Positions 1-14,068 of a stretch of 22,508 nt of DNA are shown here, in pieces. A program made the translations under genes and the position numbers. Under the pieces are notes generated by a model that was not told the origin of the DNA, made no database searches, and saw only the letters and a program-made list of their open reading frames with translations. Within the stretch, counting starts at the first letter, position 1; every line of letters starts with the position of its first letter. Source of the stretch: a virus; the IMG/VR virus record IMGVR_UViG_3300034152_000338, positions 1 through 22,508 of that record; one strand, written 5' to 3'.

Positions 1-120
1 GCAGTACTACAGTTTCATAGCCTGTTCAGCGGCGGGAATAGCTGAAACCGCATTCACATCATCCCCGGTCCGCAAACTGACATGTTTCATAGCCTGTTCA
101 GCGGCGAGAATAGCTGAAAC
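1..120 (+). CRISPR. End of a CRISPR array (two 37-nt repeats)
   Basis: Two 37-nt repeats at 12-48 and 84-120 begin GTTTCATAGC and end GCTGAAAC. They differ at one base (G at 35, A at 107). They flank a unique 35-nt spacer (49-83), and bases 1-11 are the tail of another spacer, giving a 72-nt period. Inside the repeat TTCAGC pairs with GCTGAA around a 10-nt loop, and the first bases GTTTCA can also pair with the last TGAAAC, so two folds compete for the same 3' strand. The array continues left of the window. The repeat copy with the single change is at the right end, so this may be the trailer, with the leader outside the window. No cas gene is visible and the type cannot be set from the repeat. 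With only two complete repeats seen, another kind of direct repeat is still possible. Confidence 0.82.
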
Positions 121-467: not shown

Positions 468-1184
468 GTGTTCAAACCAAACAGCTTAAAAAAAGCACTG
501 GCGATAATTCCAGCCCGGACGGGATCAAAAAGGGTGCCGATGAAAAACTTTCGGATGCTGAACGGGCTGCAATTGATAGAATATTCAATCCTCGCGGCTG
601 TTGTCTCGTATCTTATATCGCGCATAGTGGTAACGACGGATGCGGAGCGCAGCGCGATTATAAGCCGCGCCAATTTCGATTATGTCAAACGTCCGACGGA
701 ACTTTGCGCAGACGATGCCGATGACCTGTCGGTAATCCGCCATGTCATCGACCAGGGCGATTATGACGATTTCGATTTGATCGCGTATCTCCGTCCGACC
801 ACGCCGTTTCGGGCGACGTATCACATTGACGAAGCGATAAAAGCGATATCGCTTGATACTGCTGCGACCGGGTTGCGGTCGGTGGAAGAAATGCCTGAAT
901 CGGCGTACAAATGCTATATCAACAAAATAGGCTACTTGTGGCCGATTCGAAAAAACGGGGACGATTTTACCGACAAACCCAATCAATTTTGCGAAAAAAC
1001 GTATAAAGCGAACGGATATGTTGACATTTGTAGAAAGAATGTGGTAATGAGCGGAAAACTGTGGGGCGACCGGATATTGGCGTATGAAACGCCCCGGACG
1101 ATCGAAATTGATACAACCGGAGATTGGCAGTACGCCGAGTATCATTCGCGGCGCACAAACCCGATGAATGTTTGGAAGGATTGA
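468..1184 (+). CDS. neuA: CMP-nonulosonate (acylneuraminate) cytidylyltransferase
   Basis: This 238-residue protein matches the NeuA/PseF/LegF family, which couples a nonulosonic acid to CTP to give the CMP-sugar donor. The nucleotide-binding signature IPARTGSKRVPMKN is at 14-27, LRPTTPFR at 108-115, ANGYVDI at 181-187, and the C-terminal IDTTGDWQYAE block at 214-224. Length equals that of stand-alone bacterial enzymes. The start is GTG at 468, with GAGGAGA seven bases upstream. It is the first gene of a tight operon with an aminotransferase, a VOC protein and a NeuB-type synthase. Which sugar it activates (neuraminic, legionaminic, pseudaminic or another 3-deoxy-ulosonate) cannot be read from the sequence, so the symbol marks the family only. 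Confidence 0.88.
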   Translation: MFKPNSLKKALAIIPARTGSKRVPMKNFRMLNGLQLIEYSILAAVVSYLISRIVVTTDAERSAIISRANFDYVKRPTELCADDADDLSVIRHVIDQGDYDDFDLIAYLRPTTPFRATYHIDEAIKAISLDTAATGLRSVEEMPESAYKCYINKIGYLWPIRKNGDDFTDKPNQFCEKTYKANGYVDICRKNVVMSGKLWGDRILAYETPRTIEIDTTGDWQYAEYHSRRTNPMNVWKD

Positions 1185-1185
1185 C

Positions 1186-2241
1186 ATGATCGACTTCACC
1201 TCCGGCGGCATCTTTGCCGCTATTCTTGGTCAGAACCCGCTTGCGATCCGCGAGCACATTTCAAAAATAACCGATATTTCCTCATACTTCCCGCACTATC
1301 CTCATCCCGTCGCACTACGCTACATCGATATGCTTAAAGAATTCACGGGCTTTGAATCGGTGGCGCTGTTCTCCACAGGCAGCGAAGCGGTCGAGGCGTT
1401 CATGCGCTGTATGAGATTTCACAGCGGCAAGGGCGCCGTGTGGGGCGGTTTGGTCGACCCGGATGATGTAGGCAAGGACGATGCAAAGCCGGATGCCATG
1501 CACGGCATGACCCTGGGCTCATTAATCGCAGCTGGTAAAATATCCGACACGCAGTCATTGAGATTTGGCGTGGTGCCTGATGCTACGTCAAGCATGATCA
1601 TGGAACCGTACCACGCACCGTCAGCGCAGTTTCATCGAGACGAACCGACTATCGCACGGATCAAGATGCTACAAAAAGAGTTCAAGTCGATTCCGCTGTG
1701 CGTTGATGAAGTGCAGGGCGGTTTCGGCCGGGCCGGGCGGCTGTTCGCGCATCAGTGGTATGACGACCTGAAGCCGGATTTCGTAACGATCGGCAAGGCA
1801 TGCGGCGGCGGCCTACCTCTGTCGGCACTGCTGGGGCCGAAGGACATCATGGAATCGGAAGTAGTGCGGGAACACGCGCACTTGCACTCCACGCATTCCG
1901 GCAATCCGTGGATGTGCGCAGCGGGGATTGCTGTCATCGAAGAAATTCAAAAGCATGATCTGATTGATCGTAGCCAAAGGCTGGGTATCATGCTGAAAAA
2001 TCTACTCGCGGACTGCGGAGTACGGCACCACGCAGGACGCGGACTATTGGCCGGGCTTGAGTTTGAAAATCAGCTTGATGCGGGTCGAGTTGTCCAACTG
2101 TGCCTTAAAAACGGCTTAAAAGTCGTCAACACAGGGCGAAAGTGGATCAAACTCGGTCCGGCTTTCACGATTCAAGAATCAGTTCTTGAGCAAGGTTGTA
2201 TAATTTTGAAGAACGCAATAAAGGAGACATTATCAGAATGA
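1186..2241 (+). CDS. Class III PLP aminotransferase (GSAM/HemL-like)
   Basis: A 351-residue fold-type I, class III aminotransferase resembling glutamate-1-semialdehyde aminomutase but shorter than the usual ~430. STGSEA (64-69) is the phosphate-binding turn, MEPYHAP (139-145) follows, DEVQGGFGRAG (174-184) carries the PLP-contacting Asp174, GKACGGGLPLSA (203-214) carries the probable Schiff-base Lys204, and THSGNP (236-241) is the partner-subunit loop. I chose ATG 1186 because GGAAGGA (1174-1180) lies 5 bases upstream. The ATG at 1168 in the same frame has no ribosome site. The neuA-like gene ends 1 base before. The context suggests a transamination on a sugar in nonulosonate synthesis rather than in tetrapyrrole synthesis. 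This is inference. The substrate is unknown. Confidence 0.85.
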   Translation: MIDFTSGGIFAAILGQNPLAIREHISKITDISSYFPHYPHPVALRYIDMLKEFTGFESVALFSTGSEAVEAFMRCMRFHSGKGAVWGGLVDPDDVGKDDAKPDAMHGMTLGSLIAAGKISDTQSLRFGVVPDATSSMIMEPYHAPSAQFHRDEPTIARIKMLQKEFKSIPLCVDEVQGGFGRAGRLFAHQWYDDLKPDFVTIGKACGGGLPLSALLGPKDIMESEVVREHAHLHSTHSGNPWMCAAGIAVIEEIQKHDLIDRSQRLGIMLKNLLADCGVRHHAGRGLLAGLEFENQLDAGRVVQLCLKNGLKVVNTGRKWIKLGPAFTIQESVLEQGCIILKNAIKETLSE

Positions 2242-2495
2242 AAACCACCCTTCGCCACGCCGGAATCTTGGTAAAAAGCCTGGAACGCTCGATCCAGACA
2301 TACCGTGGTCTGGGATTCGAGCCGATCGAGCCGATCGAGACGTTGCGGGTGCAGAAGATGTCCGATTCATCCGGACGGGTCATCGAACTGGTGGAAGGAA
2401 ACTGGAATCCGCACATTGCGGTAAACTGGTACGCGGATGAGGACGGAAACTACGTCGAGACTGTAAAACAAGTACCAACAACATCGGAAGGATAA
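2238..2495 (+). CDS. Short VOC (glyoxalase-fold) protein
   Basis: An 85-residue protein with the opening of the vicinal oxygen chelate fold: RHAGILVKSLERSIQTYRGL (6-25), then GRVIELVEG (46-54). It runs directly into HIAVNWYADEDGNYVE (59-74), which resembles the end of a full VOC domain (HIAF...DPDGN..EL). H7 and E50 sit where metal ligands usually are. VOC domains are about 110-130 residues, so this is a strongly shortened or half-domain form. Its ATG overlaps the aminotransferase stop (ATGA), with AGGAG (2222-2226) 11 bases upstream. An earlier in-frame start at 2196 lies inside the aminotransferase and is not preferred. Similar small VOC proteins occur in bacterial surface-sugar clusters. 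Its reaction is unknown. Confidence 0.65.
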   Translation: MKTTLRHAGILVKSLERSIQTYRGLGFEPIEPIETLRVQKMSDSSGRVIELVEGNWNPHIAVNWYADEDGNYVETVKQVPTTSEG

Positions 2496-2496
2496 A

Positions 2497-3348
2497 ATGC
2501 CCAACAAAATTAAAATCATAGCAGAGCTTGGCATTAACCATAACGGCAGCTTGGATCTTGCCAAAGAGATGATTTTTCAAGCCAAACTGGCGGGCGCAGA
2601 CTGCGTGAAATTCCAGAAGCGTACTGTGGATGTTGTGTATGCCGGCGAGCTGGACAAGCCGCGCAACGATAAGAATCCGTACGGCTGGAAAACGCAAGGA
2701 GAACAGAAGCGCGGGCTGGAATTTAGTATTGACGATTATATTGAGATAGACGAATGGTGCGAATCATTTGAAATGGAGTGGTTCGTGTCGTGCTGGGACA
2801 CCGCGAGCCTGGAAATTATGGAACGGGAATTCGATCCGCCGAAGCACAAGATAGCGTCCGCGATGCTGACAAACGGTGAGTTCGTGAACAGGGTTGCCGA
2901 ATTCGGGAAGCACACATATATCAGCACCGGCGGGTGTACGCTATCAATGCTTCCCATTATTGTTGACGTTTTTAAAGCCGCCGGCACTTCTTTCAGCTTG
3001 CTGCATTGCGTATCAACTTATCCATGCGCAAACGAGCATTGCAATATCAACGCCGTAAAAGCGCTTCGGCGCCTGTATCCTGAAGTCGAGGTCGGCTACA
3101 GCGGTCACGAAGTCTGCATTGTGCCGAGCCTCGCGGCGATGGCGGTAGGCGCGACTGTGATCGAGCGGCATGTGACGCTGGATCGCGCCATGTACGGCAG
3201 CGATCAGGCCGCGAGCCTGGAATTCCAAGGACTTAAGAGGATTGTCGACTATGCGCGTATCATAGAAGCGTGCATGGGTGATGGATTCAAGCGATATCTC
3301 GACGCCGAGAAGGAAGTAATGAAAAAACTCAGGTATTGGGAAAAATAG
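2497..3348 (+). CDS. neuB: NeuB-type nonulosonate (sialic/legionaminic acid) synthase
   Basis: A 283-residue TIM-barrel synthase of the NeuB/SpsE family, which condenses phosphoenolpyruvate with a hexosamine-type aldose to make a 3-deoxy-ulosonic acid. Family motifs in order are AELGINHNG (9-17), VKFQ (37-40), STGG (143-146), LLHCVSTYP (168-176), GYSGHE (200-205), ERHVTLDR (223-230) and GSDQAASLE (234-242). It ends right after the barrel, whereas typical NeuB proteins run to ~340 residues with a C-terminal SAF (antifreeze-like) domain that helps bind ManNAc in the dimer. That domain is absent here and the next gene does not supply it. GGAAGGA precedes the ATG. The symbol marks the family. The substrate may differ from ManNAc. 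Confidence 0.87.
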   Translation: MPNKIKIIAELGINHNGSLDLAKEMIFQAKLAGADCVKFQKRTVDVVYAGELDKPRNDKNPYGWKTQGEQKRGLEFSIDDYIEIDEWCESFEMEWFVSCWDTASLEIMEREFDPPKHKIASAMLTNGEFVNRVAEFGKHTYISTGGCTLSMLPIIVDVFKAAGTSFSLLHCVSTYPCANEHCNINAVKALRRLYPEVEVGYSGHEVCIVPSLAAMAVGATVIERHVTLDRAMYGSDQAASLEFQGLKRIVDYARIIEACMGDGFKRYLDAEKEVMKKLRYWEK

Positions 3349-3359
3349 AGGGCAAGTGA

Positions 3360-4697
3360 ATGGCAAACATCCTGTTGATCAGCTACGATAACGGCAGCCA
3401 TTTGCCGTTTTTCCCGCTGAACCTGTTCTACCTGCATGGCCACCTGGCCAAATCCGGGACGAACACGGTCGGGATATATCATCAAGACCTGCACCACGGC
3501 CCGGACAAAGCGTTGTTGCCGCTGCTTGACGAGAACCCATGGGATCTCATCGGAGTAGGAATGACAGCGGGTTACTATCAATATGCTAAACTGAAGTCAT
3601 TATCGAAAGTAGTAAGCGCATCGAAGCGCAGGTCAAAGTTTCAGTACATGCTCGGCGGTCATGGCCCGGCGGCGGAGCCGGAGTTCTTCATAAACAAGAT
3701 GGGCGCCGACACGGTCGTTGTCGGTGACGGCGAAAACGGAATGGACCAGGCGCTGTCCGGGAAAAACGGTGTCATACACTCGGAGCCGTGTACCGAAGAT
3801 GACGCACCGCTGTTTCTTTATGATCGCATGCCGATCAGCACATACAAGCTGATACGGTGGCCGACTTCGACGGCTACCGATTTTTGCTTTCCGATCCTCT
3901 CCAGCCGGGGGTGCAAGTGGTCCTGCTCGTTCTGCTATCGCATGCGCAAGGGTTTTCATATGCGCAGTATCGACGCGATAATGGAAGAGATCAAGTATCT
4001 GCACAAGACACATCAAATCAATCACATCCAATTTGCCGACGAACTGCTCATGGCCGGCGATAAGCGGACTGCGGCGGTCTGCGAGGCCATTCTCAAGCTC
4101 AATTTCAAAATAAAATGGGACTGCAACGGGCGTCTGAACTACGCCAAACCGAAGCTGCTGGCATTAATGAAGAAATCCGGCTGCGAGTATATTAACTACG
4201 GCATCGAGTCGTTAAACCAACAGCTTCTTAACGAGATGGGAAAAGGATTGACGCTGCAACAGATCAATAGCGGCGTTACCGCAACCCTGACAGCCGGTAT
4301 TTCCCCTGGTCTTAATTTCATCTGGGGATTTCCGGGCGACAGCACTGCTAATCTGCGAGCTGCCGTGATGTTTTTGAAGAAATACGATCCGTGCGATGAG
4401 CTGAGAACTATTCGGCCGGTAACACCGTATCCGGGCACGAAGCTCTACCGGTTGGCTATCGAAAAAGGACTACTACAGGGCCCGGAGGAGTTCTACGAAC
4501 AAAAGCACGTTAACTCCGATCTGGTCAGCGTGAATTTTACCGACATGCCCGATGTTGAGTTCCACCGGGCGCTAAAATATGCAAATTTGGAACTGTACGA
4601 GAACTACATAGAGAAGCGCAAAAACAAGATGATGCGCACGGCGCAGGACTTTTATGACGGAAAAAACAATAGTTTCCGTGGATGGAGGCCGGTATGA
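3360..4697 (+). CDS. B12-binding-domain radical SAM protein
   Basis: A 445-residue radical SAM enzyme. The N-terminal ~140 residues look like a cobalamin-binding domain: ILLISYDNG start, LGGHGPAAEPE (98-107), then ADTVVVGDGE (116-125). The radical SAM core follows, with the 4Fe-4S/SAM motif C185-x3-C189-x2-C192 in SSRGCKWSCSFCY. Later core elements include FADELL, INYGIESLNQ and WGFPGDS. Family members with this layout perform methylations and other carbon-centred radical chemistry in antibiotic, lipid and sugar pathways. AGAGGG precedes the ATG at 3360. It sits after the NeuB-type gene and overlaps the next radical SAM gene by 4 bases, so joint action on one product is likely. The substrate cannot be read from the sequence. 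Confidence 0.85.
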   Translation: MANILLISYDNGSHLPFFPLNLFYLHGHLAKSGTNTVGIYHQDLHHGPDKALLPLLDENPWDLIGVGMTAGYYQYAKLKSLSKVVSASKRRSKFQYMLGGHGPAAEPEFFINKMGADTVVVGDGENGMDQALSGKNGVIHSEPCTEDDAPLFLYDRMPISTYKLIRWPTSTATDFCFPILSSRGCKWSCSFCYRMRKGFHMRSIDAIMEEIKYLHKTHQINHIQFADELLMAGDKRTAAVCEAILKLNFKIKWDCNGRLNYAKPKLLALMKKSGCEYINYGIESLNQQLLNEMGKGLTLQQINSGVTATLTAGISPGLNFIWGFPGDSTANLRAAVMFLKKYDPCDELRTIRPVTPYPGTKLYRLAIEKGLLQGPEEFYEQKHVNSDLVSVNFTDMPDVEFHRALKYANLELYENYIEKRKNKMMRTAQDFYDGKNNSFRGWRPV

Positions 4698-5491
4698 ACG
4701 GACTTGCGAGTGTTAACATCGAGTTGACGAGCCGCTGCAATAAGAGTTGTTGGATGTGCGGGCGCCGCAAAATGGAGAAGCAGCATCCGGAGCTTTGCGA
4801 CTGGGGCGATATGCCGATTGAGCTGCTCAAAAAGATTGCAGTGCAGATCCCGCCGGGCGTGACGGTGCAGCTCCACTGGAACGGCGAGCCGCTACTATAC
4901 CCGGACCTGGAAAAAGCGGTAATGTGTTTTCCAAATCATTTCCTTCACATGGACACGAACGGAAAACTGCTAATGGAGCGTGTTGACGAGATATATGTTG
5001 ATTCGATAGCTATAAGCATCGTTCAGGACGATCCTGAAGGAGACGAGCAGCTTGACATAGCGGAGAAATTCATTGAACGGCGCTATAACGAAATGCTGGT
5101 AGTACTGCGCACGCTCGGAAAAATCGATGCGGACAGGATGAGTAGGATCAAAGACCTCTCTTGCCGGTATCCGCGTGTAGTAGTAGCAATACGTCAATTG
5201 CACGCGCCGGCGGGCAGCTTCGGCTACGAGAAACCGGTGGTAAAACCGGAGACCGGCGTATGCCTGGAAATGCTGCACAAGCTGGCTATCGATAGGTTCG
5301 GCGATGTGTCCCCGTGCGTCCGTTACGATCCGTTCAAGCAGAATCGACTCGCCAATGTAGAGAGTGAGGCCCTGGCCGATGTGTGGACCGGCGGCCGGCG
5401 GAAAGAATGGGTTGATTATCACGTCACCGGGCGGCGTGACATGGTGCCGCTGTGCGCCGGCTGCGATTTTTGGGGCTGCCCAAATGGATAA
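4694..5491 (+). CDS. Radical SAM/SPASM domain protein
   Basis: A 265-residue radical SAM protein with C15-x3-C19-x2-C22 (RCNKSCWMC) near the N-terminus and HWNGEPLLYPD (61-71) as the SAM-binding GGEP-like element. A SPASM-type C-terminal cluster uses C190, C208, C254, C257 and C262, with the typical LANVESEALADVW spacer. SPASM proteins act on peptides or on sugars and aminoglycosides. I chose ATG 4694, which overlaps the upstream stop (ATGA) and has GGAGG (4684-4688) 5 bases before it. ATG 4682 in frame lacks a ribosome site. The stop codon touches the first base of a tRNA. No precursor-peptide gene is evident beside it, so a small-molecule or sugar substrate seems more likely. This is inference. 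Confidence 0.85.
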   Translation: MNGLASVNIELTSRCNKSCWMCGRRKMEKQHPELCDWGDMPIELLKKIAVQIPPGVTVQLHWNGEPLLYPDLEKAVMCFPNHFLHMDTNGKLLMERVDEIYVDSIAISIVQDDPEGDEQLDIAEKFIERRYNEMLVVLRTLGKIDADRMSRIKDLSCRYPRVVVAIRQLHAPAGSFGYEKPVVKPETGVCLEMLHKLAIDRFGDVSPCVRYDPFKQNRLANVESEALADVWTGGRRKEWVDYHVTGRRDMVPLCAGCDFWGCPNG

Positions 5492-5567
5492 GCGGGAATA
5501 GCTTAAAGGCAGAGCACTATCTTCCCAAGATAGGAAATGAGCGGTTCGAATCCCTCTTCCCGCTCCA
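5492..5567 (+). tRNA. tRNA-Gly (anticodon CCC)
   Basis: A full cloverleaf can be drawn. The acceptor GCGGGAA (5492-5498) pairs with TTCCCGC (5557-5563). The D stem is GCTT/GAGC with GG in its loop. The anticodon stem CTATC/GATAG holds the loop TTCCCAA (anticodon CCC, reading GGG). The T loop is TTCGAAT. The discriminator is T, as expected for bacterial tRNA-Gly, and CCA is encoded (5565-5567). The T stem pairs perfectly only if C5542 is bulged (GAG-C-GG with CCCTC). Without the bulge there are two mismatches and a G-T pair. It starts at the base after the upstream stop codon, so it must be cut out of the operon transcript. It probably supplements host decoding of GGG. The bulge leaves some doubt about function. 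Confidence 0.88.
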
Positions 5568-5585
5568 AAACACGGAAAAACAATC

Positions 5586-6338
5586 ATGGATAACAAAAAT
5601 CTTAGGCAAAAATACGAACAGATGCACAACCGGGGCTCGTCTGCCTGGTTCGACGACGGCGAGCTGGAGCGCACGGCGATATTAAAATCAGTTAGGTGGA
5701 AGAACAAAACCGTGCTTGAGATCGGCTGCGGCGAGGGCGATCTGCTGTCGCTGATCGCCAAATCGGGGCCAGGGTTATGCTACGGCATAGATTACTCTGA
5801 GACTGCGATAGCGACAGCGCAGAAGAAGCACCCGGAGCTGTCGCTGTGGGCCGGTGATTACAAAAACTTCGGTATACTGCGATGCGACATACTAGTTATG
5901 CAAGGTGTTCTTGAGCACCTTGACGATCCGTTCGCAGAGCTAAAAGAAATGATCGACAAATTCCAGGCGAGAGCCGTTGTAACAAGTTCCCCCAGCTTCA
6001 TCAACCCGCGCGGCATAGTGTGGATGACGCTTGACATGCTCGGCGCGGTAATGAGCAAGACCGACCTTCACTATCTCTTCCCCTGGCAATTTCAGCGATT
6101 TTGTGATAATAACAACTACTCGCTGGAAATGGTGTCAATCGATAATAGTTGGGGATACGGGATCAAAATGATCAACGATCTGCGGCAACGTATCCCGTTA
6201 GCGCTGAAAGACGGCAACATAAAATACGATAACGGCAAACTGGTTGAATTTCTTAACAAACTAATCCACATTTCAATTCAGGTTCCCCGATCCGACAACA
6301 CCGGCGCAACGATGATCTACAAAATCGGTGTGCGATGA
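5586..6338 (+). CDS. Class I SAM-dependent methyltransferase
   Basis: A 250-residue Rossmann-fold methyltransferase of the UbiG/Methyltransf_11-23 type. Motif I VLEIGCGEGD is at 43-52, the acidic strand-2 end GIDYS at 67-71, WAGDYKNF (88-95) is motif II-like, and VLEHLDDP is at 108-115. The C-terminal part has LHYLFPWQFQRFCDNNNYSLEM, typical of sugar or small-molecule methyltransferases with a lid region. The ATG at 5586 comes 18 bases after the tRNA, with only a weak GGA-type ribosome site. It overlaps the next gene by ATGA. Together with the radical SAM and NeuA/NeuB-type genes it could methylate the finished sugar. A nucleic-acid or protein substrate cannot be excluded. Confidence 0.83.
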   Translation: MDNKNLRQKYEQMHNRGSSAWFDDGELERTAILKSVRWKNKTVLEIGCGEGDLLSLIAKSGPGLCYGIDYSETAIATAQKKHPELSLWAGDYKNFGILRCDILVMQGVLEHLDDPFAELKEMIDKFQARAVVTSSPSFINPRGIVWMTLDMLGAVMSKTDLHYLFPWQFQRFCDNNNYSLEMVSIDNSWGYGIKMINDLRQRIPLALKDGNIKYDNGKLVEFLNKLIHISIQVPRSDNTGATMIYKIGVR

Positions 6339-6520
6339 AATGTCCTCACTGCTGCTCTGATGATGTGATGGTGATTGATACGCGCAAGTACGATACCGCG
6401 ATACGCAGACTACGTGAATGTCGAAAATGCGGCCACATCTGGATAACGTGGGAAATGAACGAATCCTCGATAGAAGTTCTCCACCCCTCTAAATTCAGCC
6501 CCTTCAAACTAAATCCCTAA
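6335..6520 (+). CDS. Stand-alone NrdR-like zinc ribbon protein
   Basis: A 61-residue protein that matches the N-terminal zinc ribbon of the ribonucleotide reductase repressor NrdR: MKCPHC, VIDTR, IRRLRECRKCGH, then a W/T-W-E end. C3, C6, C29 and C32 are the zinc ligands. NrdR is ~150 residues with an ATP-cone domain after the ribbon. Here the ATP cone is missing and the protein stops after about 20 more residues. It therefore keeps a DNA-binding-type module without the nucleotide sensor. The ATG overlaps the methyltransferase stop. Its own stop codon lies inside a perfect 36-bp palindrome. It could be a phage regulator or an interfering partner of host NrdR. Neither is shown. Confidence 0.72.
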   Translation: MKCPHCCSDDVMVIDTRKYDTAIRRLRECRKCGHIWITWEMNESSIEVLHPSKFSPFKLNP

Positions 6521-6575: not shown

Positions 6576-6590
6576 GTGCCATCATGGCAC
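6576..6590. promoter_or_regulatory. Inverted repeat over the terS start codon
   Basis: GTGCCAT and ATGGCAC are perfect 7-bp arms around a single C. The right arm begins with the ATG of the terminase small subunit. No Shine-Dalgarno sequence precedes that ATG. The upstream 6544-6575 is AT-rich, with TTGCAT (6546) and AATACT (6569) as a weak possible promoter pair. The site could be an operator, or a TerS-binding/packaging element as pac sites often lie in or near terS. Role inferred only. Confidence 0.4.
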
Positions 6591-7003
6591 GTCCTAAGAA
6601 AATTACGAAGAGAATGAAGCAGCGGTTCCTCGAATTGCTTGCTGATTGCGGTAATGTTTACAAGTGCAGTGTCGCACTGAATGTGTCGCGTTCTGATCTG
6701 TATCGTTATCGCAACGCCGATCCGGAATTTCGCGAAGCCTGGGACGCTGCAAAAGAAGCTGCGGTGGAGCTGCTTGAGGATGAGGGCTGGCGGCGAGCAT
6801 TCGATGGCATTGAAAAACCGGTATTCTATAAAGGCGAGATTTGCGGCTATGTGCAAGACTACTCCGATACGCTGCTAATGCATCGCCTCAACGCAGAGCG
6901 ACCGGATAAGTACCAGTATCGGCAAAAGATCGATGCGAACGTCGAGGGCAACATAACAATCCAGATCGTTAAATTCGCCGATGAAGATAAAGATCCCGAA
7001 TAA
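6584..7003 (+). CDS. Terminase small subunit
   Basis: A 139-residue protein with the small-terminase pattern: a basic N-terminus (ARPKKITKRMKQ), then a helix-turn-helix DNA-recognition region (NVYKCSVALNVSRSDLYRYR, about 24-43), DPEFREAWDAAKEAA, and an RRAFDGIEKPVFYKGEICG segment followed by YSDTLLMHRLNAERPDKY. This family binds the packaging start site and recruits the large subunit. The large subunit gene follows with a 23-base overlap, which confirms the call. The start at 6584 has no ribosome site and lies in an inverted repeat. The next in-frame ATG (6617) would remove the conserved basic start, so 6584 is kept. Confidence 0.88.
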   Translation: MARPKKITKRMKQRFLELLADCGNVYKCSVALNVSRSDLYRYRNADPEFREAWDAAKEAAVELLEDEGWRRAFDGIEKPVFYKGEICGYVQDYSDTLLMHRLNAERPDKYQYRQKIDANVEGNITIQIVKFADEDKDPE

Positions 7004-8330
7004 CTGGAAGCCACGCGACTATCAGATGCCGCTGTGGACGTATCTTGAACGGGGTGGCCGGCGGGCGGTGGAAGTAGCCCACCGGCGCTGGGGAAAGGAC
7101 GATGTCGCATTGCATTTCGCGGCAACGCAATGTGTGCAAACAGTGGCGAACTACTGGCACATGCTGCCGCAGTACACCCAGGCGCGCAAGGTTGTCTGGG
7201 ACGCGATCAACCCAAAAACAAACAAGCGTCGCATTGACGAAGTTTTTCCGCTGGAATTACGACGCCGCACTTCAGTGCAGAATATGCTGATCGAGCTGAA
7301 AAATGGTTCGATTTGGCAGCTGGTAGGATCAGACAACTACAATGCGTATATCGGCAGCCCTCCGCTTGGAATAGTACTTTCAGAATGGGCTGTGGCAAAC
7401 CCTATGGCCTGGGCGTACCTGTCGCCGATTCTCGAAGAAAACGGTGGGTGGGCCCTTTTCATATACACCAGCCGGGGCAACAATCACGGCCGAACTACTT
7501 ACGACATGGCAAAAAGTACGGATGGCTGGTACGCTGACCGCAGCATGGCGACCGAAACGCCCGTATTTAACGCCGAGCAACTGGACAGTATCAAAAGCGA
7601 GTATATGCAGCTGTTCGGCGAGGAATACGGATTGGCGCTTTTCGAACAAGAATATTTATGCAGCTGGGAGGGCGCGATACTCGGCGCGTACTACAGCAAG
7701 CAGATTCGTCAGGCGAGAGAAGAAGGCCGGGTTTGTCCCGTGCCGCATCAGCCGGGCGTCGAGGTGGATACATTTTGGGATTTGGGCGTTGACGACTCAA
7801 TGACTATCTGGTTCATGCAGCCGATCGGAAAGTCTTATCATTTCATCGACTACTACGAGGCAAGCGGGTATGGCCTGGAGCACTACGCGAAAGTGGTGAA
7901 AGAGAAACCGTACGTCTATGGCAATCATTGGATGCCGCATGACGCCGATCACCGCGAAATGACGAATTCCGAAATAGCAAAATCACGGAAAGAAGTCGCG
8001 CAGGACTTGGGCATTCGACCGATAAACGTTGTCTCGCGTGCCCGCAATATCGACGTAATAATCAATGTTCATATTCCGGCGGTGCGAAACATTCTCGCGT
8101 CATGCTGGTTTGACGAAACCAGGTGCGCCAAGGGCTTGCTGGCTCTTGAAAACTACCGTGCCGAATACAACGAAGAGACGAAAATTCTCGGCAGCCGGCC
8201 GGAGCATGATTGGAGTTCGCACGCAGCGGACGCATTCAGAACTTTCGCTGTCGGCTATGAATCCCGCAAGCCGGTGCTTAAATTACAAGCGCCCCGGTAC
8301 GCTAATCAACAGCAGGGTTGGATGGCATAA
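6981..8330 (+). CDS. Terminase large subunit
   Basis: A 449-residue DNA-packaging motor. The ATPase has a Walker A variant HRRWGKDD (35-42), a Walker B GIVLSEW (130-136) with the catalytic-type Glu after Ser, and a coupling motif YTSRG (162-166). The C-terminal RNase H-like nuclease begins TFWDLGVDDSM (264-274, Asp267), continues with FIDYYEASG (288-296), and ends with HDWSSHAADAFR. The length is usual for podoviral terminases. It starts inside the small-subunit gene without a good ribosome site, so translation is probably coupled. The stop overlaps the portal start (TAATG). The D in place of T/S after GK in Walker A is seen in related phages and need not mean loss of activity. Confidence 0.93.
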   Translation: MKIKIPNNWKPRDYQMPLWTYLERGGRRAVEVAHRRWGKDDVALHFAATQCVQTVANYWHMLPQYTQARKVVWDAINPKTNKRRIDEVFPLELRRRTSVQNMLIELKNGSIWQLVGSDNYNAYIGSPPLGIVLSEWAVANPMAWAYLSPILEENGGWALFIYTSRGNNHGRTTYDMAKSTDGWYADRSMATETPVFNAEQLDSIKSEYMQLFGEEYGLALFEQEYLCSWEGAILGAYYSKQIRQAREEGRVCPVPHQPGVEVDTFWDLGVDDSMTIWFMQPIGKSYHFIDYYEASGYGLEHYAKVVKEKPYVYGNHWMPHDADHREMTNSEIAKSRKEVAQDLGIRPINVVSRARNIDVIINVHIPAVRNILASCWFDETRCAKGLLALENYRAEYNEETKILGSRPEHDWSSHAADAFRTFAVGYESRKPVLKLQAPRYANQQQGWMA

Positions 8331-10252
8331 TGAGTAAAGACGATGATCTACTACAAGAAATCCGCGACAATTTCAGAACAGCGTATGACGCTGTCTCGGA
8401 TCAGTATGACGAGATGATAGACGATCTCAACTTTCTTAACAACACCGATGGAAGCCAATGGCCCGATGCGATTCGTGGTGAACGGGCGGCTGACGGGCGT
8501 CCGTGCCTGGTGATAAACAAGCTGCCCGCATTCGTGGACCAGGTCGAAGGCGACATTAAACAGAACACTCCATCCATCAAGATCAAGCCCGTTGACAACA
8601 AATCCGATCCCGATACAGCCGAAAAAATAACCGGACTAATTCGCAATATCGAAATACAGAGCATGGCGGATATCGCTTACGACAACGCGGCGTCGTCTGC
8701 AATCCGCTGCGGTCTCGGTAGATTCCGAATCGTGACGGAATATTGCGATAATGACGTTTTCGAGCAGAACATTTTCATAAAACCCATTAAAAATCCGTTT
8801 ACAGTATTTTGGGACCCGCATGCGCAAGAATGGGATAAATCGGATGCAAAGTTTTGCTTTGTGACCGAAAAAATATCACGGCAGGAATTCACGGAAAAAT
8901 ATCCGAAAGCGTCATTACAGGAATTCCAGTCATCGAAAGATGCATCGCACTGGGGCGACGGCAAAAACGAAATACGAATCGCGGAGTACTTCCGCAAAGT
9001 TCCCGAGACGAAAACGATTTACCTGGTTCATCATGAACTAACCGGTGATGATTATGTCACCGACAAAAAACCCGGGGAATTCGATGGACAGGTGATCAAT
9101 AGCCGACGGGTGGAATCGTCAAAAATCGTCTGGTACAAGACAAACGGAGTCGAGATATTGGAAGGGCCGACCGACTGGCCGGGGAAGTACATTCCGATCA
9201 TTGATATAATCGGCAAGACAATACAGATAGAGGGAAAAACCGTACATTGGGGCATCGTGCGGCACGCGAAGGATCCGTGCCGTCTGTATAATTTCTCCCG
9301 AAGTCATGATGCCGAAATGACCAGCTTGGCGCCTAAGTCGCCGTATATGGTCACCGCCAATATGATTGGCAACTATCAGGGAATCTGGGATCAAGCGCAC
9401 AAAAAAAATTTTCCCTATCTGCCGTTTGAGGTCGATAAAGACGCGCCGAGCTTAAAACCATACCGTGAGCCGCCGGTTCCGGCTAATTCCGGTATTCTGA
9501 TGCAGATTCAAATGGCGGACCAGGAAATTCACGATACTACCGGATTGCAGCTCGCATCTTTAGGCAAACCGAGCAACGAGAAGTCCGGGCGTGCAATAAT
9601 CGCACGTGTTCGGGAGGGAGAACGCGGGAATTACGCTTATTCAGACAATATCGCAAAGGCGATCCAGCAGGCCGGGCGCATCATCCTTGACCTGCTACCG
9701 CGAGTTTACGATACCGCGCGAATTGAGAGAGTACTCGGCGAGGACGGCAGCGAAGAAAGGGTTCAGTTTAACCAGCCTGTGAGAGACGAAAAAACAGGCG
9801 AGATGAAGCTGTATGATCTTACAGTCGGGAAGTACGACGTGGTGGTAAGCGTGGGACCAAGCTATCAGACTCAGAGGGAAGAAGCCGCCGAAGGCATGGT
9901 ACAGTTTTACGCGGTACTACCCGATGCTCAAAAGCTTGTGACATCAGACCTTATTCCCGGCAATCTGGATTGGCCCGGTAGCGGGGAATGGGAAAAGCGA
10001 TTAAAAGCGACCTTGCCGCCGCAGCTGGCTGGGGACGATGATGCAAATGGCGGGCAGCCTCCCCCGCCTCCCCAGCCGGATCCCGCGCAGATGGCTGCTA
10101 TGCAGAAGATGCAGGTAGACATGCAGAAAGCGCAGGTCGATATCGAGAAGTCAAAAGCCGACATCGAAAAAACAAGGGCGGAAATAGAAAAAATCCGTGC
10201 CCAAACACGGGTGGAACTTGCAGACGCACTGGAACCGAGGAAAAGTGTTTAG
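8330..10252 (+). CDS. Portal protein (P22 gp1-like)
   Basis: A 640-residue protein of the P22-type portal family, the dodecameric ring at the DNA entry vertex. Typical segments are the acidic helical start, QWPDAIRGERAADGRPCLVINKLPAFVDQVEGD near 39-70 (in pieces), SIKIKPVDNKSDPDTAE, FTVFWDPHAQEWDKSDA, and GLQLASLGKPSNEKSG. After a proline run (PPPPPQPDP) the C-terminal ~60 residues form a long K/E/Q helix with repeated D/E-I-E-K units, a probable coiled coil like the P22 barrel. ATG 8330 overlaps the large terminase stop. The upstream TTG 8318 in frame is not needed. The next gene starts inside its 3' end. Confidence 0.93.
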   Translation: MSKDDDLLQEIRDNFRTAYDAVSDQYDEMIDDLNFLNNTDGSQWPDAIRGERAADGRPCLVINKLPAFVDQVEGDIKQNTPSIKIKPVDNKSDPDTAEKITGLIRNIEIQSMADIAYDNAASSAIRCGLGRFRIVTEYCDNDVFEQNIFIKPIKNPFTVFWDPHAQEWDKSDAKFCFVTEKISRQEFTEKYPKASLQEFQSSKDASHWGDGKNEIRIAEYFRKVPETKTIYLVHHELTGDDYVTDKKPGEFDGQVINSRRVESSKIVWYKTNGVEILEGPTDWPGKYIPIIDIIGKTIQIEGKTVHWGIVRHAKDPCRLYNFSRSHDAEMTSLAPKSPYMVTANMIGNYQGIWDQAHKKNFPYLPFEVDKDAPSLKPYREPPVPANSGILMQIQMADQEIHDTTGLQLASLGKPSNEKSGRAIIARVREGERGNYAYSDNIAKAIQQAGRIILDLLPRVYDTARIERVLGEDGSEERVQFNQPVRDEKTGEMKLYDLTVGKYDVVVSVGPSYQTQREEAAEGMVQFYAVLPDAQKLVTSDLIPGNLDWPGSGEWEKRLKATLPPQLAGDDDANGGQPPPPPQPDPAQMAAMQKMQVDMQKAQVDIEKSKADIEKTRAEIEKIRAQTRVELADALEPRKSV

Positions 10253-10862
10253 CGCTAAACTCATATCGCATAATAAGCCGGTCACGAGATTGCACGATGT
10301 GGTACTAGTAATAGGAGACGGCAGTGGCCTACACGCGGATTTAGAACAATTCTTGGTTTGGGATATACCGCATGACGTGGCTGCCATCGGCCGTTCGATC
10401 AAGGTCTATCCGGGCAAGGTCCGGCATTGGTTCAATCTGGACTCGGAATGCTCGATAAACTGGGCGAAGAATTTGATTAACGGTGAAGGCACAATTAGAC
10501 ATACCGTCGGCGATGTCGACGGATTCGACTGTGACTGGGAGTGCACACAGCCGAATTATAATTATGCGATCATTACCAACGATGACAGGCGGCTACACGG
10601 ATCAAGCGCATTATTCGCCTCGCTGGCCTGCATCGCGATGGGATACAAAAAAATCGTGCTGGCCGGCTGCCCGATGGACATGAGTGGCCATTGGTACTTC
10701 CCGCCGTCTAAAGAAACGTTGGGGCCGCTGTGGATAGGCGTTGATTTCATGGCATGGATCGATTTCGCGCGGCAGCCGGATTCTAAAAAAGTAACAAGCA
10801 TGAGCGGCTATACCGCAAAATTATTGGGAGAGGCGACAAAAGATGGAATGTTCAAGCTGTAA
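10245..10862 (+). CDS. MptE/DUF115-like Rossmann protein, possible glycosyltransferase (copy 1)
   Basis: About 205 residues. The N-terminal strand-loop VVLVIGDGSGL resembles the GxGPSL nucleotide-binding loop of MptE/DUF115 proteins and of GT42 sialyltransferases. It is followed by HDVAAIGRSI and a LDSE segment, then GSSALFASLACIAMGYKKIVL leading into AGCPMDMSGHWY, where those families have TSG...GYKEIYLxGID. The tail is TSMSGYTAKLLGEAT. The gene at 11222 has the same blocks, so the two are paralogs. GTG 10245 follows GAGGA and overlaps the portal stop. An in-frame start at 10197 lies inside the portal gene. A sugar transferase role is inferred from fold resemblance and from the NeuA/NeuB-type genes upstream. 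Members of this fold with other reactions exist. Confidence 0.6.
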   Translation: MFSAKLISHNKPVTRLHDVVLVIGDGSGLHADLEQFLVWDIPHDVAAIGRSIKVYPGKVRHWFNLDSECSINWAKNLINGEGTIRHTVGDVDGFDCDWECTQPNYNYAIITNDDRRLHGSSALFASLACIAMGYKKIVLAGCPMDMSGHWYFPPSKETLGPLWIGVDFMAWIDFARQPDSKKVTSMSGYTAKLLGEATKDGMFKL

Positions 10863-11118
10863 ATATCATGACACCGGCACATGCCGGCGATATCCGCCGT
10901 CGCATCATGGATTTCCAATCGTGAGCAGTACTACATGGTGCGGCGAATACAGCTGGTGTGGCGAATATCAAAAAAATAAGGAGCACGAAAAAAATGAGCA
11001 AAAAGAACAAGAAATCGGAAATTTTAGAAGACGTGAGCGAATACCTAGACGAGCAATTTATGCCGGAGCCGCTAACCGGACTGGTGATACCATTAAACGT
11101 CGCGGAAGCACTAATTAG
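10843..11118 (+). CDS. Small Cys-rich phage protein
   Basis: The first ~43 residues look like a known type of small phage protein with a metal-site pattern: C3, C6, C14, then W-C-G-E-Y. Here the WCGEY unit is present twice in tandem (32-36 and 38-42, from an 18-base near-duplication at 10936-10971). After that the frame runs on for ~48 residues of low-complexity, basic sequence that overlaps the next ORF by 125 bases and looks like chance read-through. The ATG overlaps the end of the upstream gene, with GGGAG about 13 bases before. The N-terminal part is probably real. The long tail is doubtful, and the original stop may have been lost with the duplication. Confidence 0.5.
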   Translation: MECSSCKYHDTGTCRRYPPSHHGFPIVSSTTWCGEYSWCGEYQKNKEHEKNEQKEQEIGNFRRRERIPRRAIYAGAANRTGDTIKRRGSTN

Positions 11119-11221
11119 CAACATCGGCGCAAACAATTGGGCTGCTGTTATCGCCATTTGCAATGCCGATATCCGGCCCGCTGCGGAGAAGCAATATCCC
11201 GACACTTTCGGAAAACGCTAA
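10994..11221 (+). CDS. Small hypothetical phage protein
   Basis: A 75-residue protein with a basic start (MSKKNKKSE), an acidic helix (ILEDVSEYLDEQF), then PLTGLVIPLNVAEALISNIGANNWAAVIAICNADIRPA. The ATG at 10994 has AAGGAG (10978-10983) 10 bases upstream, the best ribosome site in this segment. The frame could start at GTG 10958 but this lacks support. The stop TAA abuts the ATG of the second DUF115-like gene. I do not recognise a family. It is nested in the portal-to-scaffold interval between two paralogs, so it may be a partner of them, but nothing in the sequence proves it. Confidence 0.7.
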   Translation: MSKKNKKSEILEDVSEYLDEQFMPEPLTGLVIPLNVAEALISNIGANNWAAVIAICNADIRPAAEKQYPDTFGKR

Positions 11222-11911
11222 ATGCATCAAGTAATCAGCAACAACACGGTTTTCCCGACCGAGATCATTAAAGGCGATCCGCACGCCACGCCGATCATAA
11301 ACGACTATATGGCGCGGCTGCGCACGTCGGACAATGACGTTTTACTAGTACTCGGCGACGGGTCGAATGTGCTGGACGACATTGCGCGCTGGTACGAGAT
11401 CGCAGAAGGAATAGTCGAATACGACACAATGGCGGTCAACTACAGCGCATTGATTTGCCCGCATGAGTTCCAGCACTATGCCGCCGGCGACGCGCACATG
11501 CCGGATATGCAGGCTGTTGCAGCGGGATTGCCGAAGCATGTTATCAAGCATGCGTGGAACCCCGGGAGCCTTGGTTTCGATGTCCGGTGGGTGCGTAATG
11601 GGCGCGGGGGATGGAACGGTACGAGCGCAAATCTGGCATTCAAGATCGGCCTGGCGCTTGACTACACCCGAATCGTGCTGGCCGGCTGCCCGATGGACAG
11701 TAGCGGAAACTGGTATAAACGGCTGATAAAGCCGAACGACATAAAAGTAGATAAGGATCACCGTCACCACATGTGGAAGTGGTGCGAGATGGCAACCCGC
11801 CCGATCGGCCGGTTTCTGCGGTCGATGAGCGGCAACACCGCCGACATTTTCGGCGAACCCACCCGGCAGTGGTTATTGCACGAGCCGGAGATTGAGGAGA
11901 ACGAAAAATGA
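11222..11911 (+). CDS. MptE/DUF115-like Rossmann protein, possible glycosyltransferase (copy 2)
   Basis: A 229-residue paralog of the protein encoded at 10245. VLLVLGDGSNVLDDI replaces the family GxGPSL loop. YDTMAVNYSAL followed by AAGDAHM matches the D..AvN.S...D pattern of DUF115/MptE and GT42-like folds. WNGTSANLAFKIGLALDYTR leads into IVLAGCPMDSSGNWY. The end SMSGNTADIFGEPT is shared with copy 1. Between these it has an extra HRHH-rich stretch (around DKDHRHHMWKWCEM), where a catalytic histidine would be needed in a sialyltransferase. It starts right after the upstream stop with only a weak ribosome site, and overlaps the scaffold gene by 4 bases. Transfer of the CMP-sugar made by the left operon is a reasonable but unproven role. 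Confidence 0.62.
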   Translation: MHQVISNNTVFPTEIIKGDPHATPIINDYMARLRTSDNDVLLVLGDGSNVLDDIARWYEIAEGIVEYDTMAVNYSALICPHEFQHYAAGDAHMPDMQAVAAGLPKHVIKHAWNPGSLGFDVRWVRNGRGGWNGTSANLAFKIGLALDYTRIVLAGCPMDSSGNWYKRLIKPNDIKVDKDHRHHMWKWCEMATRPIGRFLRSMSGNTADIFGEPTRQWLLHEPEIEENEK

Positions 11912-12753
11912 GTGAAGAAGTAAAAGAGCAAGACCCGCAGGAACCTGCGGAGAGCACACCCCCGGAAGGGGAGAAACCTGAGCAGATATCCGGCGCTGCC
12001 GCAACGACAGCCGCCGAGGCGGGTGACGCCCCCGTGGACGACAAGCCCGATCCGGCCGCGATGAAGGCCGAGAAAGAAGCACTGGCGGAAGAGCGCAAGA
12101 GGATAGCAGCGGAAAATCGGGCCGCATATTGGCAAAGAAAGGCGGTTGAGCAGCCACAGCGGCCGCACACCCCGGCGCAACCAGATCAACAGCCACCGGC
12201 AGAAATGCCGGAGGGCAACGCCAAACCGGACCCGTCACAATTCGATGACTATGATCAATACATCGATGCGCTGACAACCTGGAAGGTAGATGCAAAAAGG
12301 GCCGAATGGGAAGCCGATCAACAGAGGCGACAGCAAAATGCCGCTTACCAGGAGCGCGAAGCGCGGTTTCGTGAAAAGCTGGATGAGGGATTCGCGAACT
12401 ATCAGGATTTCGGGGATGTAGTATTCGATCCTACGTTGCCGATCTCGCAGACGATGAAAGAGATAGTGATGGAATCCGACAAGCCGGCTGAAGTACTGTA
12501 CCATCTCGCTAAAAACCGGGTCGATGCTGTTCGTATCTCACGCATGACGCCGGCCGCCGCCGCCAGAGAAATCGTTAAAATCGAAAATCAGCTCGGCGTG
12601 ACAAAACCGGGCGCTCAACAAAAAAAATCAACCGGCGCTCCGCCGCCGATCAGCCCTGTCGGGCCGTCGGGATCACACGAAAAGGACCCCGAGAAAATGA
12701 CGCAAGCGGAATTCGCCGCATGGCGGGCAAAACATGGTGCCCGGCCATACTAA
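11908..12753 (+). CDS. Scaffolding protein
   Basis: A 281-residue, highly charged protein placed directly before the coat gene, as in P22-like phages. The N-terminal ~50 residues are acidic and proline-rich. A helical stretch follows (MKAEKEALAEERKRIAAENR), then a Pro/Gln linker, FDDYDQYIDALTTWKVDAK, and a Q/R/E-rich coiled-coil region to about 165. The C-terminal third contains a helical DPTLPISQTMKEIVMESDKP segment and ends WRAKHGARPY, a basic tail that would suit coat binding. GAGGAGA (11894-11900) lies 7 bases before the ATG. Scaffolds diverge fast, so the call rests on composition, size and position as well as on family-like phrases. Confidence 0.85.
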   Translation: MSEEVKEQDPQEPAESTPPEGEKPEQISGAAATTAAEAGDAPVDDKPDPAAMKAEKEALAEERKRIAAENRAAYWQRKAVEQPQRPHTPAQPDQQPPAEMPEGNAKPDPSQFDDYDQYIDALTTWKVDAKRAEWEADQQRRQQNAAYQEREARFREKLDEGFANYQDFGDVVFDPTLPISQTMKEIVMESDKPAEVLYHLAKNRVDAVRISRMTPAAAAREIVKIENQLGVTKPGAQQKKSTGAPPPISPVGPSGSHEKDPEKMTQAEFAAWRAKHGARPY

Positions 12754-12769
12754 GAAGGAGTAACTAAAA

Positions 12770-14068
12770 ATGGCTAGTACAACTTCACATACACTGTTAA
12801 AACCGACCATAATCGCAAAAGAAGCCCTCCGGCTGCTCAAAAACAACATGGTAATGGGCAATATAGTCTATCGCGATTATGAAAAGGAATTTCCCGGGAT
12901 GCCGAAAACCGGGGGTTCCGTTCAGATTCGAAAACCCAACAAATTCAAGGTCACCAAGGCCCGGACGCGCGTGTCAACCACGATGTCCGAAGCTTACATC
13001 ACTATGACGGTGGCCACCCAGGCCCATGTAAGCTGGGTGTTCGAGATGGTCGATCTTACCTTGACCATCGAGGAATACTCGGAGAGGTACATACGACCTG
13101 CCGCCGCAGCGCTGGCGAACCAGGTTGACGCGGACCTGTGCGCCCTGTACGATGATGTTGCGAATACTACTTATGAGAGCACCGGATACGTGACCCCGCA
13201 TACATTTTGGGTAATGGGTGACGCGATGCGGAAGTTGGACGAAGAAGCTGCGCCGCCCGATGACCGGGTAGTAGTTTTCAATCCCGCTGCTCATTGGTCA
13301 TTCGCCAATGCGCTGTCGAACTGGAATTTCCGCGAGGGCGGAGAGGGAGCGCTGAGGAAGGGCTTCCTGGGCAAAATCGCCAATGCGGAAGTGTTCATGG
13401 ACCAGAACATAAAAACCCATACGGTAGGAAAGTATGCGACCGACACCGCCGCCGCCACTACGAGCCGCATTTTCATTCACTCGACCGCTGATAGTGCCTC
13501 CGGCGGATTGCCGACCGGCAACGCCCGCGAAGCGACGGAAAACCAATCGCTGTTGATCGCCGGAAATATTCAGGATTCCGTTACTCCGTTTAAAACAGGT
13601 GACACATTCAGCATAAACGGCTGTTACTCAGTCAATCCGATGTCGGGAGAGTCGACGGGACAGCTGCGCGATTTTGTGGTAACGCAGGATTGCGGCACTG
13701 TTACCGATGACAGCACGGGCATACCGTCTTGGATCTACTTTCAGCCGTACATGATCCACACCGGTCCGTACAAAACGGTTGACACCATCCCGGCGCTGGG
13801 CGCGGCCGTGAAGATTTACGGCAACTCAAACCGCCCGCACCCGCAGAACCTGGCATTCCATAAGAACGCCTTTGCTCTTTGCATGGTGCCGCTGCAAATG
13901 CCGACCGGAGTATGGGGCGCCGTGGAAATGGAAGACGGTATCAGCATCCGCATTGTGAAAGACTACGATGTAGACGAAGACGCCGAAATCGTAAGAATGG
14001 ATATTCTGTACGGCGTCAAAACCATCTACCCCGAGCTGGCCTGCCGAATCTTCGGCAAAGAGGGCTAG
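12770..14068 (+). CDS. Major coat protein (P22 gp5-like)
   Basis: A 432-residue protein, almost the length of P22 coat (430), of the P22 coat family with an HK97 core plus an inserted domain. The N-terminal helix has LLKPTIIAKEALRLLKNNMVMGN, followed by a GGSVQIRKPNKFKV E-loop segment, TMTVATQAHVSWVF, DLTLTIEEYSERYIRPAAAALANQVDADL (the spine helix) and VVVFNPAAHW. It ends with an acidic VDEDAEIVRMDILYGVKTIYPELACRI strand region. AAGGAG (12755-12760) nine bases before the ATG is a strong ribosome site, as expected for the most abundant virion protein. It follows the scaffold by 16 bases. Confidence 0.94.
   Translation: MASTTSHTLLKPTIIAKEALRLLKNNMVMGNIVYRDYEKEFPGMPKTGGSVQIRKPNKFKVTKARTRVSTTMSEAYITMTVATQAHVSWVFEMVDLTLTIEEYSERYIRPAAAALANQVDADLCALYDDVANTTYESTGYVTPHTFWVMGDAMRKLDEEAAPPDDRVVVFNPAAHWSFANALSNWNFREGGEGALRKGFLGKIANAEVFMDQNIKTHTVGKYATDTAAATTSRIFIHSTADSASGGLPTGNAREATENQSLLIAGNIQDSVTPFKTGDTFSINGCYSVNPMSGESTGQLRDFVVTQDCGTVTDDSTGIPSWIYFQPYMIHTGPYKTVDTIPALGAAVKIYGNSNRPHPQNLAFHKNAFALCMVPLQMPTGVWGAVEMEDGISIRIVKDYDVDEDAEIVRMDILYGVKTIYPELACRIFGKEG

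Follow-up and report, generated by a model that had tools for sequence, protein, structure and literature searches.

Repeat anatomy at the left contig end

The window, i.e. the whole 22,508-nt stretch analysed here, is an entire IMG/VR record, and its contig starts inside a CRISPR-like array. Two direct repeats of 37 nt each lie at 12-48 (GTTTCATAGCCTGTTCAGCGGCGGGAATAGCTGAAAC) and 84-120, with starts 72 nt apart. They are 36/37 identical (97%, direct-repeat family D1), the one difference being G to A at repeat position 24 in the second copy, and their consensus is GTTTCATAGCCTGTTCAGCGGCG(G/A)GAATAGCTGAAAC. Base-by-base comparison shows that identity between the copies starts and stops exactly at both borders, and the 6-nt repeat ends, GTTTCA on the 5' side and TGAAAC on the 3' side, are complementary. 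The repeat length falls inside the range of about 23-47 nt given for the near-identical direct repeats of CRISPR arrays. Between the two copies is a 35-nt spacer, spacer 1 (49-83, CGCATTCACATCATCCCCGGTCCGCAAACTGACAT), while the first copy is preceded by the end of another spacer (1-11), cut by the contig end and, compared in register, unlike the bases that lead into repeat 2. No strand is assigned to these features or to the two that follow them. The original prediction had described two 37-nt repeats with palindromic ends and 35-nt spacing, and this description is borne out in full.

Past repeat 2 lies an AT-rich 37-nt stretch (121-157), either the last spacer or a leader or trailer, followed by GTTTCATA (158-165), which equals the first 8 bases of the repeat and begins 74 nt past the start of repeat 2 at position 84. 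G+C content is 20% at 121-165, against 52% for the window. The length of 121-157 suits a spacer provided that 158-165 is what is left of a cut repeat, and only in that case would a second spacer (37 nt) be in view beside the one full spacer. First-order models put the chance of GTTTCATA occurring in register between 1.4e-4 (window composition) and 6.6e-4 (local AT-rich composition), and the observed 8-mer frequency in phage loci gives 1.4e-4 over a narrower range, values that carry moderate weight, as the recurrence was noticed post hoc. Array ends usually carry a cut or degenerate terminal repeat. Since GTTTCATA is in register and directly abuts the DUF1064 reading frame, 158-165 is probably a third repeat, truncated where the array ends.

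A search for pairs alike in length and spacing across some 0.85 Mb of sequence from related phages turned up only low-complexity tandem repeats (in loci L014 and L061), apart from one further pair on a bacterial contig (L076). Because the other such pairs in the phage loci are low-complexity tandem runs, we take the pair at the contig end to be real rather than a product of chance. A separate 23-nt repeat pair with 72-nt spacing was noted in a terminase relative (L083:16075, the same repeat recurring at L009:984); it is simple-looking and not CRISPR-like.

RNA folding of the repeat gives alternative hairpins of similar energy, no better than those of shuffled sequences (z about -1), and therefore no CRISPR type can be read from structure, in agreement with the prediction of two competing hairpins and no assignable type. 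No terminator or promoter consensus was found in 1-165, and an Rfam search returned sub-threshold chance matches only.

Phage genes downstream of the repeats

The neighbour of the repeats, predicted to be a DUF1064 gene, is indeed one: a phage Holliday-junction-resolvase-like gene on the plus strand at 166-465 (PF06356, E 5.9e-17; phrog_190, 2.7e-28). Its frame opens with TTG at 166, the next base after GTTTCATA. In DUF1064 relatives, two or more residues separate the start codon from a conserved HKF, and the codon matching the ATG of one of them, L069, is ATA here, formed by the last three bases of GTTTCATA. The usual DUF1064 start codon thus seems to have been lost at the very end of GTTTCATA, as a recent join, natural or artificial, would explain. 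These observations point to array sequence having been fused to the DUF1064 gene at its start codon, either by natural recombination or in a chimeric read. Sequence inspection also finds a plausible ribosome site, AGGTG, at 154-158, 7 nt before the TTG. A reading of 121-165 as a minus-strand leader with an extended -10 element (TGATACAAT, 173-165) was dropped; the stretch also codes for the conserved DUF1064 start.

A cargo block separates DUF1064 from the genes for terminase, portal, scaffold, coat and head closure. The terminase small and large subunit genes occupy 6584-8330 on the plus strand (phrog_4044, 2.1e-37; phrog_2, 2.8e-21), placing the array about 6.5 kb upstream of the packaging operon, as predicted. 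Genes for the portal, a scaffold-like protein and the major head protein follow on the same strand at 8318-14068 (phrog_156, 1.8e-138; phrog_283, 1.2e-73), the scaffold being assigned by its position and homology to relatives. The relative L066 has the same order, with DUF1064, small ORFs, terminase, portal, scaffold and coat; judged by this gene content, the right side of the contig is phage, and DUF1064 is a native phage gene at that place, as the matching order in L066 indicates. The best named terminase relatives come from Acetobacter, Stenotrophomonas, Rhizobium and Bradyrhizobium phages (45-48% identity) and the coat protein relatives from Vibrio, Xanthomonas and Shewanella phages (about 31-32% identity), and we assign no host from them.

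Several other features of these genes deserve mention. (i) The cargo block between DUF1064 and the terminase genes (468-6338) encodes a PseF-like cytidylyltransferase, a class-III aminotransferase, a NeuB/PseI-like synthase, a B12-binding radical SAM protein, a radical SAM/SPASM protein and a methyltransferase, and looks like a nonulosonic-acid-like sugar pathway carried on a phage; in L066 the same place is taken by a lysis-like gene and small ORFs. (ii) Just before the terminase genes, 6335-6520 encodes a small zinc-ribbon protein like the NrdR N-terminal domain. (iii) The terminase large subunit (6981-8330) is 70-72% identical to relatives that come with portal and coat proteins sharing only 31-40% identity with those of the present phage, and the packaging motor gene therefore seems to have been exchanged between phages. 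(iv) Two related-looking proteins with a common AGCPMD motif (10197-10862 and 11222-11911) flank small ORFs between the portal and scaffold genes, and neither matches NCBIfam.

Searches for the repeat, its spacer and Cas proteins

No exact copy of the repeat occurs in 2.9 million viral contigs or in 84,980 genomes (one per species), and a relaxed form, with the loop freed and with stem wobble and variable gaps allowed, gave no real copy in the same two collections, in scans that may omit records very near the window. The single relaxed match, in Legionella brunensis, lies at the end of a coding-like stretch without a second copy and was attributed to chance; at up to 3 mismatches, the repeat was found in none of 399 genomes drawn from the Legionella phylum. 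In published text, only unrelated papers with short sub-strings of the repeat came up.

Spacer 1 was searched for in several ways: its exact 24-nt core was absent from the viral contigs, one of its reading frames with degenerate codons gave no match, and comparison with phage and plasmid collections gave none. Against the window itself, 62 terminase relatives and 12 DUF1064 relatives, nothing rose above chance, and so the targeting of related viruses that marks virus-borne mini-arrays was not seen for spacer 1 among those relatives. An exact search with 125-154 returned no match. The original prediction had proposed comparing the repeat with host arrays and searching for the spacer: no host array in the 84,980 genomes shares the repeat, and neither the viral contigs nor the phage and plasmid collections contain a match to spacer 1. 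Known matches are lacking for the majority of environmental spacers.

The prediction that the window holds no cas gene agrees with our results, as no Cas protein was recognised among the window proteins tested from this partial contig. Linkage to cas genes, or a repeat in common with a cellular array, supports a CRISPR array but is not part of its strict definition. No array was found in the fetched sequence of the 62 terminase and 12 DUF1064 relatives, nor in the full records of four of them.

Origin of the array sequence and comparison with known systems

The contig end is best explained, in our view, as one end of a CRISPR array carried by a P22-like tailed phage directly upstream of its DUF1064 gene, a reading to which we give about an even chance. 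It is favoured because a CRISPR array would show this repeat length, such sharp borders, GTTTC...GAAAC ends and a spacer of 35 nt, because the in-register 8-nt start of a third repeat has a p of about 1e-4 to 7e-4, because DUF1064 stands where it does in L066, as a native phage gene, and because known virus-borne arrays lack cas genes and use host-like repeats (PMC6858448, PMC11656645). It is weakened by the confinement of the array to the contig end, the place at which a chimeric join is most difficult to dismiss, by the lack of an array in any fetched phage relative, by the lack of a real match for the repeat and spacer 1 in the collections searched, and by the apparent loss of the DUF1064 start codon at the end of GTTTCATA. 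Of the original prediction of a CRISPR array on a phage genome, the CRISPR-like anatomy and the adjoining phage genes have held up, while phage ownership is only putative for an array that takes up the last 120-165 bases of a contig and is shared by no relative fetched.

The main rival is serious: the assembler or a chimeric read may have attached part of some bacterium's CRISPR array, present in the same sample, to the phage contig, the phage itself having no array. We regard this as possible, if the lesser prospect. Restriction of the array to the contig end, its absence from every relative fetched, the join at the expected DUF1064 start codon and the sharp change in base composition across 121-165 are all consistent with such a chimera. 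A k-mer bridge, however, requires at least about 20 nt in common, and the array seemingly reaches the gene border with GTTTCATA, leaving no room for such an overlap; the join would therefore have to come from a chimeric read and not from an assembly bridge. The truncated third repeat likewise argues against the simplest and commonest assembler bridge, in which array and phage DNA have a spacer in common, because such a bridge would run from spacer into phage sequence and not into repeat; it does not count against a chimeric read. The plausible ribosome site before the TTG also speaks against a chimera, suggesting that 121-165 is the gene's own upstream region.

Alternatively, the repeats may not be CRISPR at all and instead form a non-coding phage repeat pair upstream of the DUF1064 operon, e.g. 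regulator binding sites or a duplicated intergenic element. The view of only two full copies and one full spacer, the occurrence of the repeat in no other array and hairpins no stronger than chance would all fit, but length, spacing, sharp borders and GTTTC/GAAAC ends are jointly hard to account for otherwise, no similar non-tandem pair occurs in the 0.85 Mb of phage relatives, and 1-165 is free of terminator or promoter consensus; we consider this quite unlikely. Least probable is an RNA anti-CRISPR, in which transcribed repeats would act as decoys binding host Cas proteins. Phage-borne repeats are capable of such action (PMC10651486), but the class is defined by solitary repeats with no second full repeat within 100 bp, and it is disfavoured here because two full copies start 72 nt apart.

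Under the phage-borne reading, the array would comprise no fewer than two full repeats plus a truncated one in view, with the remainder beyond the contig end. It may be transcribed during infection, its transcript processed by a host Cas6-type enzyme and loaded into a host effector, and its spacers would direct attack on rival phages or plasmids. A fuller version strikes us as unlikely: the P22-like phage would carry a true CRISPR array with a repeat unlike any in the genomes searched, the array would head the late-gene operon and have its guides made together with that operon, and it would serve against rival phages with the help of host Cas proteins or of cas genes encoded left of the contig. 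If the array is real, a small short-tailed phage joins the viruses with guide arrays, the repeat would point to its host, and the competitors that it fights may be revealed. Phage mini-arrays without cas genes and lone repeats are already established (PMC6858448, PMC10651486, PMC11656645); with small phage arrays known, the present case is at most one more member.

The closest likeness in layout is to the mini-CRISPR arrays of the Sulfolobales viruses SPV1 and SPV2 (PMC6858448) and to phage mini-arrays (PMC11656645), which share a short array placed between viral genes or beside them, no cas in view and a presumed dependence on host Cas; mini-arrays of this kind have just one or two spacers. 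In those archaeal viruses and phages, the repeats equal the host's and most spacers match related viruses, whereas here the left end of the array is missing, the collections searched held no matching host repeat or spacer target, the leader is only a candidate, and the carrier is a P22-like tailed phage. The compact arrays of huge phages are also short (median six repeats), and some of them are without interference genes (PMC7162821). Those phages, however, have genomes above 200 kb, and several encode their own cas genes, while the records of the present phage's relatives measure about 37-64 kb. Solitary repeat units, or RNA anti-CRISPRs, are similar in placing a CRISPR-like repeat on a phage with no cas genes in view (PMC10651486). 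The authors of that study set aside full repeat matches less than 100 bp apart as arrays, and the present locus differs from solitary units in just this respect, as it has a second full repeat, in array register with the first.
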